Below are positions 52,337 through 56,882 of a DNA stretch of 64,000 nucleotides, one piece after another. The notes under the pieces are model-generated. The model had not been told where the DNA came from. It ran no database searches and worked only from the letters and a program-made list of their open reading frames with translations. Origin of the DNA: Polyangiaceae bacterium (GTDB lineage: Bacteria > Myxococcota_A > Polyangia > Polyangiales > Polyangiaceae). Every line of letters begins with the position of its first letter. Positions within the stretch are counted from its first letter, which is position 1. Location of the stretch: the NCBI GenBank assembly GCA_947475525.1, contig CANJMI010000004.1, positions 62,001-126,000 of the forward strand, read 5' to 3'. A program made the translations under genes and the position numbers.

Positions 52337-53296
52337 ATGAAAAGCTTGATCCGTGTTGGTTTTGCCTTCGTTTCATTCGCTGCCCTCGCCGCGGCTTGTT
52401 CCGCAAAAGGGGGCTCGGACACGTCCACGACGTCGACGACCACGACGACCAACGAGTCCACGACCAGCAACATGGTGGCGACGAGCGGCGGCGGCGACGT
52501 GTCGACCTCCAGCATGAACACCTCGGGAGCCGGCGGCTCGATGAAGCCGAAGGAAATGGACTGTACCAACGGGATGGACGACGACGGTGACAACTTCACC
52601 GATTGCGATGACTTCGACTGCAAGGGCAAACCCGAGTGCCCCGCGTCAACGGAGAATTCCGACGCGCTCTGCAGCGACGGCATCGACAACGACGAGGACA
52701 AGCTGACCGACTGCGCGGATCCGTCTTGCCACAACCACCCGGCCGTCACGCTCTGCAAAGAGACGAATTGCACGGATGTGAAGGACGATGATTCGGACGG
52801 CAAGATCGATTGCGCCGACAAGGACTGCTGGAAGGACGCCGCCTGCGCCACCAAGGTCGAGTCGGGTGATGTGGCTTGCGCCGACGGCAAAGACAACGAC
52901 AGCGACGGCAAGACCGACTGCGCGGACTTTAGCTGCCACGACACGAGCCCGAAGTGCGTCGAGACCGAGTGCACCAACGGGATGGACGATGACAAGGACA
53001 CCTTCGCGGACTGCAAGGATTTCGATTGTCAGTACGCCGGGAAGTGCGCCGATGCGGAAGTGACGGACTCGACCTGCAGCGACGGCAAAGACAACGACAT
53101 GAACGGCTTCATGGACTGCAAGGATTTCGGCTGCCAGAAATCGCCGGTGACGACGAAGTGCGAAGGCAACCCCACGACCTGCGCCGACGGCATCGACAAC
53201 GACGGCAACGGCTTCACGGACTGCGGAGATTTCGCATGCCGCAACTGCATGGGGATGAAGCCCTTCGCGGCGGCGACCTGCGCGCCTTGCGGTTGA
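52337..53296 (+). CDS. Acidic Asp-repeat lipoprotein (MopE-like calcium-binding pattern)
   Basis: 319 residues. Lipobox AAAC (Cys21), Thr/Ser-rich linker, then seven repeats of the form C-x-D/N-G-x-D-[DN]-D-x-[DGN]-x-[FTKM]-x-D-C-x-D (for example CSDGIDNDEDKLTDCAD, CADGKDNDSDGKTDCAD, CADGIDNDGNGFTDCGD). These D-x-D-x-D loops look like calcium-binding motifs held by disulfides; similar repeats occur in myxobacterial and methanotroph surface proteins. AGAGG stands before the ATG. A strong terminator follows. Confidence 0.85.
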   Translation: MKSLIRVGFAFVSFAALAAACSAKGGSDTSTTSTTTTTNESTTSNMVATSGGGDVSTSSMNTSGAGGSMKPKEMDCTNGMDDDGDNFTDCDDFDCKGKPECPASTENSDALCSDGIDNDEDKLTDCADPSCHNHPAVTLCKETNCTDVKDDDSDGKIDCADKDCWKDAACATKVESGDVACADGKDNDSDGKTDCADFSCHDTSPKCVETECTNGMDDDKDTFADCKDFDCQYAGKCADAEVTDSTCSDGKDNDMNGFMDCKDFGCQKSPVTTKCEGNPTTCADGIDNDGNGFTDCGDFACRNCMGMKPFAAATCAPCG

Positions 53297-53451: not shown

Positions 53452-53727
53452 TCAGCCCGCTGCGCGCGACGAGGGTTCCGCCGAAGAGCCCGCTGAAAAC
53501 GCGGTGTTGCCAGCCTCACCATCGGGCACGAGCGCATCGAGTACCCCGTCGACGAGGCCCATGTGGCTCCGAAGGCTCTCGACGAGCGGACCGACGACCT
53601 GGTCCAGACGCTCATCATGCCGGGCTTTGGCCACCCGCTGCAGCTCGCTCAGAAGCACCAAAATACGCAGCTGCTCGGTCTGCAGGCGCGCAATCACGTC
53701 GGGGGAGACGATGCTTGGCTGGCTCAT
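53452..53727 (-). CDS. Small conserved hypothetical protein
   Basis: 91 residues with very good ribosome site GAGGGGGAAGG before ATG at 53725-53727. Helical: DVIARLQTEQLRILVLLSELQRVAKARHDERLDQVVGPLVESLRSHMGL, then an Ala/Ser-rich end. No family recognised. Divergent from the poly-glutamate operon. Confidence 0.7.
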   Translation of the reverse strand: MSQPSIVSPDVIARLQTEQLRILVLLSELQRVAKARHDERLDQVVGPLVESLRSHMGLVDGVLDALVPDGEAGNTAFSAGSSAEPSSRAAG

Positions 53728-53764
53728 GCCTTCCCCCTCGCATCTCGTGTGCCAGGCCTCGGAC

Positions 53765-53788
53765 CTGCGATTTGACTTGGAATCGCAG
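53765..53788. repeat. Perfect 8-bp inverted repeat in divergent promoter region
   Basis: CTGCGATT-TGACTTGG-AATCGCAG (53765-53788) within the 194-bp gap 53728-53921 between the small hypothetical gene and the polyglutamate operon. It contains TTGACTT, a possible -35, and could be an operator for one of the two genes. Nothing else was recognised in the gap. Confidence 0.5.
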
Positions 53789-53921
53789 CGGCCCCCAGCC
53801 GTTCCGCGCATCGTTTGCACGAGGGGTTGGCAACCGGTGCACGCTTGCCGGGGCTCGCTGGCGGAAACCGCTTCCACGCCGGGCGCTACCACTGCTATTT
53901 CGGGGGCGAGGTATAGAAGTG

Positions 53922-54146
53922 ATGACGTTCCGCAAACTTGGACTGGTCTCGCTCGCGGCCCTTGGGCTGTGCGCATTCGGCTGCGATAAGAAGCCAATGG
54001 AGTTATCGGCCCCCCCGGCGGCTGCCCCGGCGGCAGTCTCGGCCACGCCCACCGCTTCGGCGACGGCCTCCGCGGCCACGAGCGCCGCACCGGCGTCATC
54101 GGGTGCAGCCGACGACGACGATGACGACGACGACGACGACGAGTGA
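53922..54146 (+). CDS. Small lipoprotein with poly-Asp tail, head of polyglutamate operon
   Basis: 74 residues: signal with lipobox FGC (Cys21), Pro/Ala/Thr/Ser linker with repeated SAT, and a tail of ten Asp and one Glu. The stop overlaps the start of pgsB (GTGA). No known family. The acidic tail on a lipid anchor next to a polyglutamate synthase suggests binding of cations or mimicry of the polymer end; this is inference. GTG at 53919 is an alternative start. Confidence 0.72.
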   Translation: MTFRKLGLVSLAALGLCAFGCDKKPMELSAPPAAAPAAVSATPTASATASAATSAAPASSGAADDDDDDDDDDE

Positions 54147-55360
54147 CCGTCGAACTGCTCGCTGCCGCCGCTTGCACGTTGCTCGGATTCGGCATCGTTG
54201 AAGCGGCGCGGCATCGGAGGCGCATCCACTCCGTGCCCGTTCGAATTCACGTCGGCGGAACGCGGGGCAAATCCAGCGTCACTCGGCTTGTCGCAGGGGG
54301 GCTCCGGCGCGCTGGAAAGCGGACCGTCGCAAAGACCACGGGATCGCTCCCGTCCTTTATTTTTCCGGATGGGCGAGAGACCCCAATCCTCCGCGCAGGT
54401 GCACCCAACGTCATCGAGCAGGCGCGCATCTTCGCCTCCGCGCGCGAGCTCGGGGCGGATGCCATCGTCCTCGAATGCATGGCGCTTCAACCTGAGCTGC
54501 ATTGGCTCTGCGAGTCCAAACTCATTCGAGCAACGCACGCCGTCATCACGAATGTCCGCGCCGACCACCTCGACGTCATGGGCCCCACCGAAGCCGACGT
54601 GGCTCGGTGCCTCGCGGCGATGATCCCGATAGGCGGCGTCCTCGTCACCGCTGAGGAGACGCATCTCGCGGTCCTCGAGGAGGCATGCCTCGATCGCAAC
54701 ACGAAGCTCGTCCGCGTCACCCAAGATGAGGTTCTCGCGATAAGCGACCACGAGCTCGCCCGCTTCGAACATATCGAGCACCGAGAAAACGTCGCGGTCG
54801 CGCTGCGCGTCCTCGCGGAATTGGGCGTTGACCGAGACCTCGCTTTTGAAGGCATGTGGGCCGCACCGCCCGACCCGGGTGCACTCACCGAGCACGACCT
54901 CGCGTTTTTCGGTCGGCGCATCGTGTTCGTCAACGCCTTCGCAGCAAACGACCCCGACTCGACGTCGCGCGTGTACCACCTCGCCCGCGCTCGCTACCCC
55001 GAGCTCGAGCACGTGATCGCGCTCTTCAACCTCCGTGAGGACCGTCCCGACCGCACACGCCAGCTCGCTCGCGACACCGCTTGCTGGCACAGCGCCGACC
55101 ACGTCGTTTTGGTAGGCGACGGCGCCCGCCTTTTCGCGCGCGAAGCCGGCCGCGTGAACATCGCAAAGGAACGCTTCACGATAGTCGACCACGAAGCCGT
55201 CGACGCGATGTTCGAGAGCATCGTCGAGCTCTGCGGCCGCGAAACGCTCGTGATCGGCATGGGAAATATCGGCGGTCCCGGCTTCGAGCTCGTGCGCATG
55301 TTCAAGAACCGCCGAACGCTCATGCCCGATCCCACACGCGTGAAAGGCGAGCTATTGTGA
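54143..55360 (+). CDS. pgsB: Poly-gamma-glutamate synthase PgsB/CapB
   Basis: 405 residues, a Mur-ligase-related ATP-dependent amide ligase that polymerises glutamate. One N-terminal hydrophobic helix, P-loop GGTRGKSSV (38-46), TTGSLPSFI, LECMALQPEL, TNVRADHLDVMGPT, NAFAANDPDSTSRVY and the C-terminal GNIGGPGFELV. GTG start overlapping the lipoprotein stop by four bases; the next gene overlaps likewise, so the operon is tightly coupled. Confidence 0.93.
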   Translation: MTVELLAAAACTLLGFGIVEAARHRRRIHSVPVRIHVGGTRGKSSVTRLVAGGLRRAGKRTVAKTTGSLPSFIFPDGRETPILRAGAPNVIEQARIFASARELGADAIVLECMALQPELHWLCESKLIRATHAVITNVRADHLDVMGPTEADVARCLAAMIPIGGVLVTAEETHLAVLEEACLDRNTKLVRVTQDEVLAISDHELARFEHIEHRENVAVALRVLAELGVDRDLAFEGMWAAPPDPGALTEHDLAFFGRRIVFVNAFAANDPDSTSRVYHLARARYPELEHVIALFNLREDRPDRTRQLARDTACWHSADHVVLVGDGARLFAREAGRVNIAKERFTIVDHEAVDAMFESIVELCGRETLVIGMGNIGGPGFELVRMFKNRRTLMPDPTRVKGELL

Positions 55361-55806
55361 AGGACTTGGTGGCGGTCGCCGTCGGCTTGGGCCTCGTGCT
55401 TGGCGTGCTCGGAACCGAGCTCTTGGGTCTCGCCGCGTCGGGGCTCGTCGTGCCGGGGTACCTCGCACTGCACCTGCACGAACCGAAATCCCTCGCCGCA
55501 ACGCTCGCCGTCGCTTTCGCTACGCTCGGTTCGGTGCGTTTCGTATCGACCTTCGCGATCGTGCACGGTAGGCGGCGTACCGCAGCGATGCTCCTCGTGG
55601 GCTACCTCCTCGGCCTCCTCACCGGCGAATGGTCCGGCCTCTGGACCGCGACGGATGAGCACGCGACAATAGGTCTGGTCATCCCGGGTCTCATCGCGCT
55701 CGGCATGGACAAGCAAGGGGTAGTCGAGACGTTGAGCGCGCTCACCGTCATCGCTGTCCTCGTGCGGCTCGTGCTGCTGGCCGGTGGCGCGGAGTTGCCT
55801 TCGTGA
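55357..55806 (+). CDS. pgsC: Poly-gamma-glutamate synthesis membrane protein PgsC/CapC
   Basis: 149 residues, about five hydrophobic segments, with SGLVVPGYLALHLHEP near the N-terminus as in CapC and a later GLVIPGLIALGM repeat of the same theme. It forms the membrane complex with PgsB. GTG start within the pgsB stop; its stop overlaps the pgsW GTG. Confidence 0.93.
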   Translation: MKDLVAVAVGLGLVLGVLGTELLGLAASGLVVPGYLALHLHEPKSLAATLAVAFATLGSVRFVSTFAIVHGRRRTAAMLLVGYLLGLLTGEWSGLWTATDEHATIGLVIPGLIALGMDKQGVVETLSALTVIAVLVRLVLLAGGAELPS

Positions 55807-56882
55807 AGTCGCTCTACTGGCAGGCGGGTCGTCACTCGCGGAGCGTGCTCGTGCTGCTCGCCTTCGTGTCGGCGGCTTCACTGCTGACGGTGGAGCGATT
55901 CCAAGTGAAGCAGCGCACGGCGTACCACTCCGAAAAAGTGAAGGCCGCCGAGCTCACCCAACACGCGTTCCAGGTCCTCAAAGATGAGCGGCTGAAGCGA
56001 AACGAACCTATCGACGCTCCGATCGATCCGACGGGCTCGGGACTGATGGGGCGTTTGGTATCGCCGACCACCACGGGCACGGGCATCGCCGCCGCAAAGC
56101 AGACGAGCATCAACCCGAACTTCGCGGCCGTGGTCGTCCAGCTCTTGAAACAGGCCGGCGTGAAACCAGGGCACGCGGTCGCCGTTGGTCTATCGGGTTC
56201 GTTTCCCGCGCTCAACGTCGCGACGCTTGCTGCAATTCAAACCATCGGCGCACGCGCGGTCACAATCTCGAGCGTTGGATCGTCGCAGTGGGGCGCGAAT
56301 CTGCCGAATTTCTCATGGCTCGATATGGAAAAAGCCCTCGTGCTTCGGGGCGTACTCGAACACCCCAGCGTCGCGGTGTCGCCCGGCGGCGTCGACGACC
56401 GTGCGCTCGGCCTCGAAGCGAACGGCAAGACGGCGATCGACGAAGCTATCGCACGAAGCGGATTGCCGACCCTCGACGCAAAAAACCTCGCCGATAGCAT
56501 CGAGAAACGCATGGCGACCTACCGCCGTGCGGCCGGTGATTCCCCCTTGCGAGCGTTCGTCAACGTAGGCGGAGGCACGAGCAGCGTCGGCACCCGAATT
56601 GGCAAAGAGCTCTTCAAGCCAGGGCTCAATCGAACCCTACCGCGAGGCGCTGCGCCAGATTCCGTGATGGCGCGGTTCATCGCCGACGGCGTACCCGTCG
56701 TGCACCTGAGTCGCATCGAAGTGCTCGCCCGACAGCACGGATTGCCGGTGCGACCGAACGCCACGCCGCCCGTCGGAGAAGGCGTCCTCTACGTGCAAGC
56801 CTTGCCAAGCCGCATGCTCGCCGCGGGTGCGTTCTTGTTGATCGTGGGACTCGGCTTCGTCCTGCTGCGACCCCGCGCGTGA
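55803..56882 (+). CDS. pgsW: Poly-gamma-glutamate system protein PgsW
   Basis: 359 residues with a membrane segment at each end (about 15-30 and 335-353) and a middle domain with VGLSGSFPALNVATLAAIQT, SSVGSSQWGANLPNFSWLDME and GGVDDRALG, FVNVGGGTSSVGT. It matches the protein found with PgsB/PgsC in operons lacking PgsA. PgsA/CapA and a depolymerase are not in the window, so polymer handling may differ. Confidence 0.9.
   Translation: MKSLYWQAGRHSRSVLVLLAFVSAASLLTVERFQVKQRTAYHSEKVKAAELTQHAFQVLKDERLKRNEPIDAPIDPTGSGLMGRLVSPTTTGTGIAAAKQTSINPNFAAVVVQLLKQAGVKPGHAVAVGLSGSFPALNVATLAAIQTIGARAVTISSVGSSQWGANLPNFSWLDMEKALVLRGVLEHPSVAVSPGGVDDRALGLEANGKTAIDEAIARSGLPTLDAKNLADSIEKRMATYRRAAGDSPLRAFVNVGGGTSSVGTRIGKELFKPGLNRTLPRGAAPDSVMARFIADGVPVVHLSRIEVLARQHGLPVRPNATPPVGEGVLYVQALPSRMLAAGAFLLIVGLGFVLLRPRA

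Follow-up and report, generated by a model that had tools for sequence, protein, structure and literature searches.

An acidic-tailed predicted lipoprotein at the head of a polyglutamate-synthase operon in a genus of freshwater myxobacteria

The 64,000-nucleotide stretch of Polyangiaceae DNA analysed here, called the window, contains polyglutamate-synthase genes preceded by a small gene whose product is a predicted lipoprotein ending in ten aspartates and a glutamate. The locus raises the question of whether this small protein is a working part of the synthase system or a co-transcribed neighbour of it.

Operon organisation and gene families

The original prediction described four genes in a chain of GTGA overlaps, and direct reading of the sequence, together with the family matches, confirms this. 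The four-nucleotide overlaps lie at 54143–54146, 55357–55360 and 55803–55806 and link four co-directional genes on the plus strand. The small lipoprotein gene (53919–54146) is followed by pgsB (54143–55360), which encodes the ligase subunit of polyglutamate synthase, a Mur-ligase-type protein with a GTRGKS P-loop. PgsB matches TIGR04012 (E-value 1.5e-129; 432.1 bits against an NCBIfam cut-off of 222.7) and contains a Mur-ligase middle domain (PF08245). The membrane subunit is encoded by pgsC (55357–55806), which overlaps pgsB; its product matches TIGR04011 (4.1e-32; 111.3 bits against an NCBIfam cut-off of 96.45), in agreement with Pfam (PF14102, 1e-29). Directly after pgsC lies a TIGR04332 gene (55803–56882; 1.2e-94; 317 bits against an NCBIfam cut-off of 100). 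‘PgsW’ is a label from the original prediction; the NCBIfam name of the family is ‘poly-gamma-glutamate system protein’. The PgsB and PgsC families predict that the product of the locus is anionic gamma-linked polyglutamate. The description of a polyglutamate-synthase operon with a small, acidic-tailed predicted lipoprotein at its head is thus borne out, and the tail is acidic in all four orthologues.

The genes flanking the operon on both sides are common to the members of the genus. Upstream, at 52337–53296 on the plus strand, lies a gene for another predicted lipoprotein, which carries acidic double-disulfide repeats in seven copies (NF033662, 193.5 bits); the same gene precedes the operon in all four congeners. 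A divergent 92-aa ORF at 53452–53730 on the minus strand has no family match and is kept in the genus at 63–87% identity. The intergenic region shared by this ORF and the operon (53731–53918) holds, according to a three-genome alignment, a conserved TTTGCAC...TGCAACC.GTGCAC block and a ribosome-binding site; no sigma-70-like promoter was found in it. Far from the operon, at 1266–2738 on the plus strand (G000:C4:63266-64738), lies a gene for a gamma-glutamyltransferase homologue (PF01019), one of three in the genome.

The small lipoprotein and its acidic tail

The frame running from ATG 53922 to TGA 54146 encodes ...CAFGC-DKKP...SGAADDDDDDDDDDE, ending in ten D and one E. The codons of the acidic tail, ten GAC/GAT and one GAG (54111–54143, plus strand), lead into the GTGA overlap with pgsB. 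In the upstream DNA alignment, a GAGGTnTnGAA-GTG block (GAGGTnTnGAAGTG) ahead of the small gene is kept in three congeners; because of this conservation, GTG 53919 is a likelier start than ATG 53922. Once the matching start is used, all four orthologues are 75 aa long. The existence, stop and tail of the gene stand as originally described; the start at ATG 53922 probably gives way to the GTG one codon upstream.

The protein has the build of a lipoprotein, with a basic start and a hydrophobic stretch forming a predicted signal peptide, a cysteine, an Ala/Pro/Ser/Thr linker and the C-terminal DDDDDDDDDDE. The linker is about 30–40 residues long and probably disordered. A lipobox A-x-G-C (x = F, I, P, A), identified as a pattern match only, is present in all four orthologues; the stricter standard pattern fits two of the four, while two orthologues have a weak lipobox (AFGC, APGC). 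The cysteine would probably be lipidated; the residue at position +2 after it is D, D, K and D across the four orthologues. NCBIfam gave no match for the protein and Pfam none above its cut-off, in libraries that may lack a PgsE/CapE model.

The tails comprise 10–16 acidic residues: D10E in the window, DADDDDDDDGDE in G001, DEDDDEDDEDDEDDEDL in G002 and DADDDDDDDDDE in G003. Glutamate is the C-terminal residue in three of the four, and the G002 orthologue ends in leucine. The G002 tail mixes Asp and Glu, encoded by GAC, GAT, GAG and GAA, indicating that acidity has been kept rather than a GAC repeat in the DNA.

Eleven proteins with DDDDDE-stop C-termini were found in 98 genomes of the family, and two of them are products of the pgs-linked small gene. 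The remaining nine look cytoplasmic by eye, and none has a lipoprotein-like start; several are similar, to the eye, to IF-3, HU, S1 or ScpB. Since only the pgs-linked tails of this kind are on lipoproteins, the combination of a lipoprotein with a poly-Asp-Glu tail is, in the genomes sampled, confined to the pgs operon. Poly-Asp ends as such are a recurring habit of the window genome. A loose definition of poly-Asp before a stop gave 40 matches there, and 33 loci were read on both strands. Five proteins have at least eight acidic residues among the last 15, and the small lipoprotein is one of them; the others are proteins of 75, 407, 430 and 468 aa, of which the 430-aa one has a signal-like start and the 468-aa one is TRAP permease-like (TIGR00786). 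Because poly-Asp ends occur on these four unrelated proteins, a tail of this kind may have nothing to do with polyglutamate. Loci L279, L284, L282, L278 and L269 encode poly-Asp-tailed proteins resembling IF-3, HU and S1 by eye, and the TRAP permease (TIGR00786).

Conservation of the small gene and of the core operon

The genus consists of freshwater myxobacteria, and pgsB is present in four of its five genomes; the fifth, G004, is about 85% complete. Each of the four pgsB-bearing genomes encodes the 75-aa acidic-tailed predicted lipoprotein directly upstream of pgsB (in G001 the locus is L174, from Polyangiaceae bacterium MAG ZH-3nov15-113, and in G003 it is L177, from Deltaproteobacteria MAG K_DeepCast_35m_m2_009). 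G004 has no good match to the small protein, its best hit (E-value 3.4e-4) being a different protein. The six pairwise dN/dS values (NG86) are 0.20, 0.30, 0.25, 0.30, 0.27 and 0.45, with dS near saturation and the gene short; by this sequence comparison, the small gene is under purifying selection and its conservation is above chance. The four orthologues form one lineage and so represent, in effect, a single origin. Among the four congeners, the four-nucleotide overlap with pgsB is found in the window genome only; in the other three, gaps of about 25, 85 and 104 nt separate the lipoprotein stop from the pgsB start. The variable gap implies that strict translational coupling is not conserved.

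For the search outside the genus, 131 loci with pgsB were collected, 123 of which have at least 400 nt of upstream sequence; six of these are genus rows (two being duplicates) and 117 are others (some duplicated). The idea that homologous loci share the small gene holds inside the genus (four of four pgsB-bearing genomes) and fails outside it, where an acidic-tailed predicted lipoprotein was found within 1.5 kb upstream of pgsB in none of the 117 loci. The looser lipobox scan used found all four members of the genus and may miss odd lipoboxes; a stricter scan missed two of the four. At E-values up to 1e-3, matches to the lipoprotein were obtained in 12 of 60 family genomes, all those outside the genus being weak (best 1.3e-5). 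The seven weak loci inspected (L261–L267) were rejected as orthologues: they hold either unrelated lipoproteins that begin alike but have a different C-terminal part, or uninformative frames. At loci L037, L038, L078, L079, L092, L093, L097, L107, L111, L192 and L217, the gene for a different, larger predicted lipoprotein ends no more than about 130 nt from the start of pgsB.

The pgsB–pgsC–TIGR04332 core is far more widespread. TIGR04332 is present in 49 of 377 genomes of the phylum. A PgsB scan of contigs from one genome per species confirmed 168 loci, of which 80 were kept, from Myxococcota, Planctomycetota, Idiomarina and others. In a tblastn search of 133 loci with the window proteins (some records being duplicated), the three genes occur together and in order nearly everywhere; with duplicate records included, four-nucleotide overlaps join pgsB to pgsC in 67 of 128 loci and pgsC to the TIGR04332 gene in 89 of 128. 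Open frames that span about 1000–1240 codons and carry a tandem pair of CapC (PF14102) domains, a separate and larger CapC-containing type, were observed in the same bacterial order (genomes G022, G035, G017, G033, G045, G012 and others; loci L013, L016 and L019).

The original prediction also drew attention to the missing PgsA. PF09587 (PgsA/CapA) has no match among the operon proteins or in the whole window genome (estimated to be 98.9% complete), which argues against a PgsA encoded elsewhere in that genome. An unlinked PF09587 gene is present in two congeners. Of 18 other genomes, all but one of them carrying pgs genes, 12 gave an unlinked match, so the genomic absence of PgsA is not general. 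The absence from operon and genome is upheld, but not as a special trait: pgsBC–TIGR04332 is common without an adjacent pgsA, which looks like the normal state of a standing operon type. The lack of PgsA beside pgsBC appears to be the rule for this type, not a defect. A portion of the CapsuleFinder paper (PMC5542703) counts CapA and CapE among the accessory components and allows no PGA-digesting enzyme in a capsule system.

An AlphaFold2 model of the TIGR04332 protein (pLDDT 94.6) has a long helix near each end and an α/β domain between them. Judged by eye from the charges, the end helices would be membrane helices and the middle domain would lie outside. Residues K99, N106, S133, W172, D199 and N254 are invariant. 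In the four congeners residues 30–325 carry charges of +10, +4, +8 and +6, whereas 61 other sequences average +0.8 (sd 7.5), a difference within 1.3 sd; this weakly suggests a basic domain as a partner for the acidic tail. A sequence-profile comparison with solved structures gave no match at an E-value below 0.04. Foldseek with the model gave a best E-value of 4e-3 (TM about 0.13), and VIA-align a best Z of 8.0 over 131 residues (rmsd 3.1) among mixed Rossmann-like enzymes. A functional assignment from the fold was dropped, as the resemblance is only generally Rossmann-like and no solved fold is close.

Possible role and comparison with known systems

The reading we prefer, tentatively and with a probability of about 0.4, is that the small protein is a genus-specific accessory lipoprotein which sits beside PgsBCW at the periplasmic face of the inner membrane and tunes chain exit or synthase activity. 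PgsB, as a cytoplasmic ligase, would make polyglutamate together with PgsC and the TIGR04332 protein in the membrane. The lipid-anchored small protein would stay mainly at the periplasmic face, next to this complex, with its disordered linker extending the strongly anionic tail outward. The tail might gather divalent cations or dock on a basic surface of the periplasmic part of PgsC/TIGR04332, and either could tune chain exit or synthase activity. The role would most likely be that of a small synthase-associated factor like PgsE/CapE, an analogy that implies no sequence kinship. A bolder version, which we consider improbable, makes the tail a mimic of the product: a polyanion tethered to the inner membrane in the PgsC/TIGR04332 exit path, gating synthesis via divalent metal. 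If true, it would be a Gram-negative counterpart, reached by convergence, of the metal-responsive Bacillus PgsE.

The gene could instead be a lineage-specific lipoprotein gene merely co-transcribed with pgsBCW, its acidic tail having arisen by GAC slippage and drift or serving a general charge role. This is a serious possibility, though we doubt it. It is consistent with the poly-Asp tails on four unrelated proteins of the same genome, with the similar signal-plus-linker N-terminal halves on unrelated lipoproteins of the family (L261, L267), with the different, unrelated predicted lipoproteins just before pgsB at several other loci and with the unconserved overlap. However, the gene lies beside pgsB in all four pgsB-bearing congeners, its length and acidity constant while the flanking spacing has shifted; D/E substitution preserves the acidity of the tail, and no convincing match turned up in G004, the congener (about 85% complete) that lacks pgsB.

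The remaining alternatives give the tail a direct part in handling the polymer. An outer-membrane lipoprotein holding exported polyglutamate on its Asp tail through bridging divalent cations would suit a polyanionic tail, a predicted lipid anchor, a shared operon and the absence of PgsA from the genome; but ten charges per anchor are few for a long polyanion, and we regard this as unlikely. Inner-membrane retention accompanies D at +2 in E. coli and K at +2 in M. xanthus, as stated in a portion of PMC3222651, and the D/D/K/D residues of the orthologues are in line with such retention and speak weakly against an outer-surface anchor; the myxobacterial rules come from M. xanthus, not from the family of the window organism, to which rules from these two species may not apply. 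That the lipoprotein is a primer or acceptor, with PgsB extending its C-terminal Glu/Asp carboxyls or a transpeptidation adding the chain so that the polymer becomes covalently bound, is very improbable. The Glu that ends three of the four orthologues and the gamma-glutamyltransferase homologues, three in the window genome including the one inside the window, would fit, but the tail would be exported, PgsB is taken to be cytoplasmic and the G002 orthologue ends in Leu. PF01019 is also widespread: it is present in 8 of 14 control genomes, and in the congener without pgsB too.

A literature search by title and abstract opening gave no paper on myxobacterial pgsBCW or on a pgs operon that encodes an Asp-tailed lipoprotein. 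The window operon has the same three core genes, in the same order, as the already known pgsB–pgsC–TIGR04332 type; in comparison with loci of this type outside the genus, the extra leading Asp-tailed predicted lipoprotein is found in the window operon only, and this genus-specific part is what is new. Small, confined to one genus and under selection, the gene offers a defined handle on a possible polyanionic helper of the synthase, and it bears on how polyglutamate leaves cells with two membranes and on what may stand in there for PgsA/PgsE.

The capBCA genes of Francisella, likened here by description and not by sequence, also comprise capB and capC with a third gene in a Gram-negative bacterium. 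One table labels the capA product ‘poly-gamma-glutamate system protein’ (excerpt of PMC5362203), which is the wording of TIGR04332, and the capsule role of capBCA has been doubted (excerpt of PMC4688374). The excerpts of these two papers do not mention a small lipoprotein, whereas the window operon encodes a predicted one. With PgsBCAE/CapBCADE of Bacillus, the window operon shares PgsB and PgsC, both above NCBIfam equivalog cut-offs, and a small, putatively accessory gene; unlike the Bacillus systems, which have PgsA, the operon and its genome are devoid of PF09587. According to portions of PMC9045300, the 55-aa PgsE of B. subtilis raises gamma-PGA output in a Zn/Cu-dependent way, and its homologue CapE is required for synthesis in B. 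anthracis. The same source places pgsE last in the Bacillus operon, whereas the small gene of the window comes first, and its product is an acidic-tailed predicted lipoprotein.
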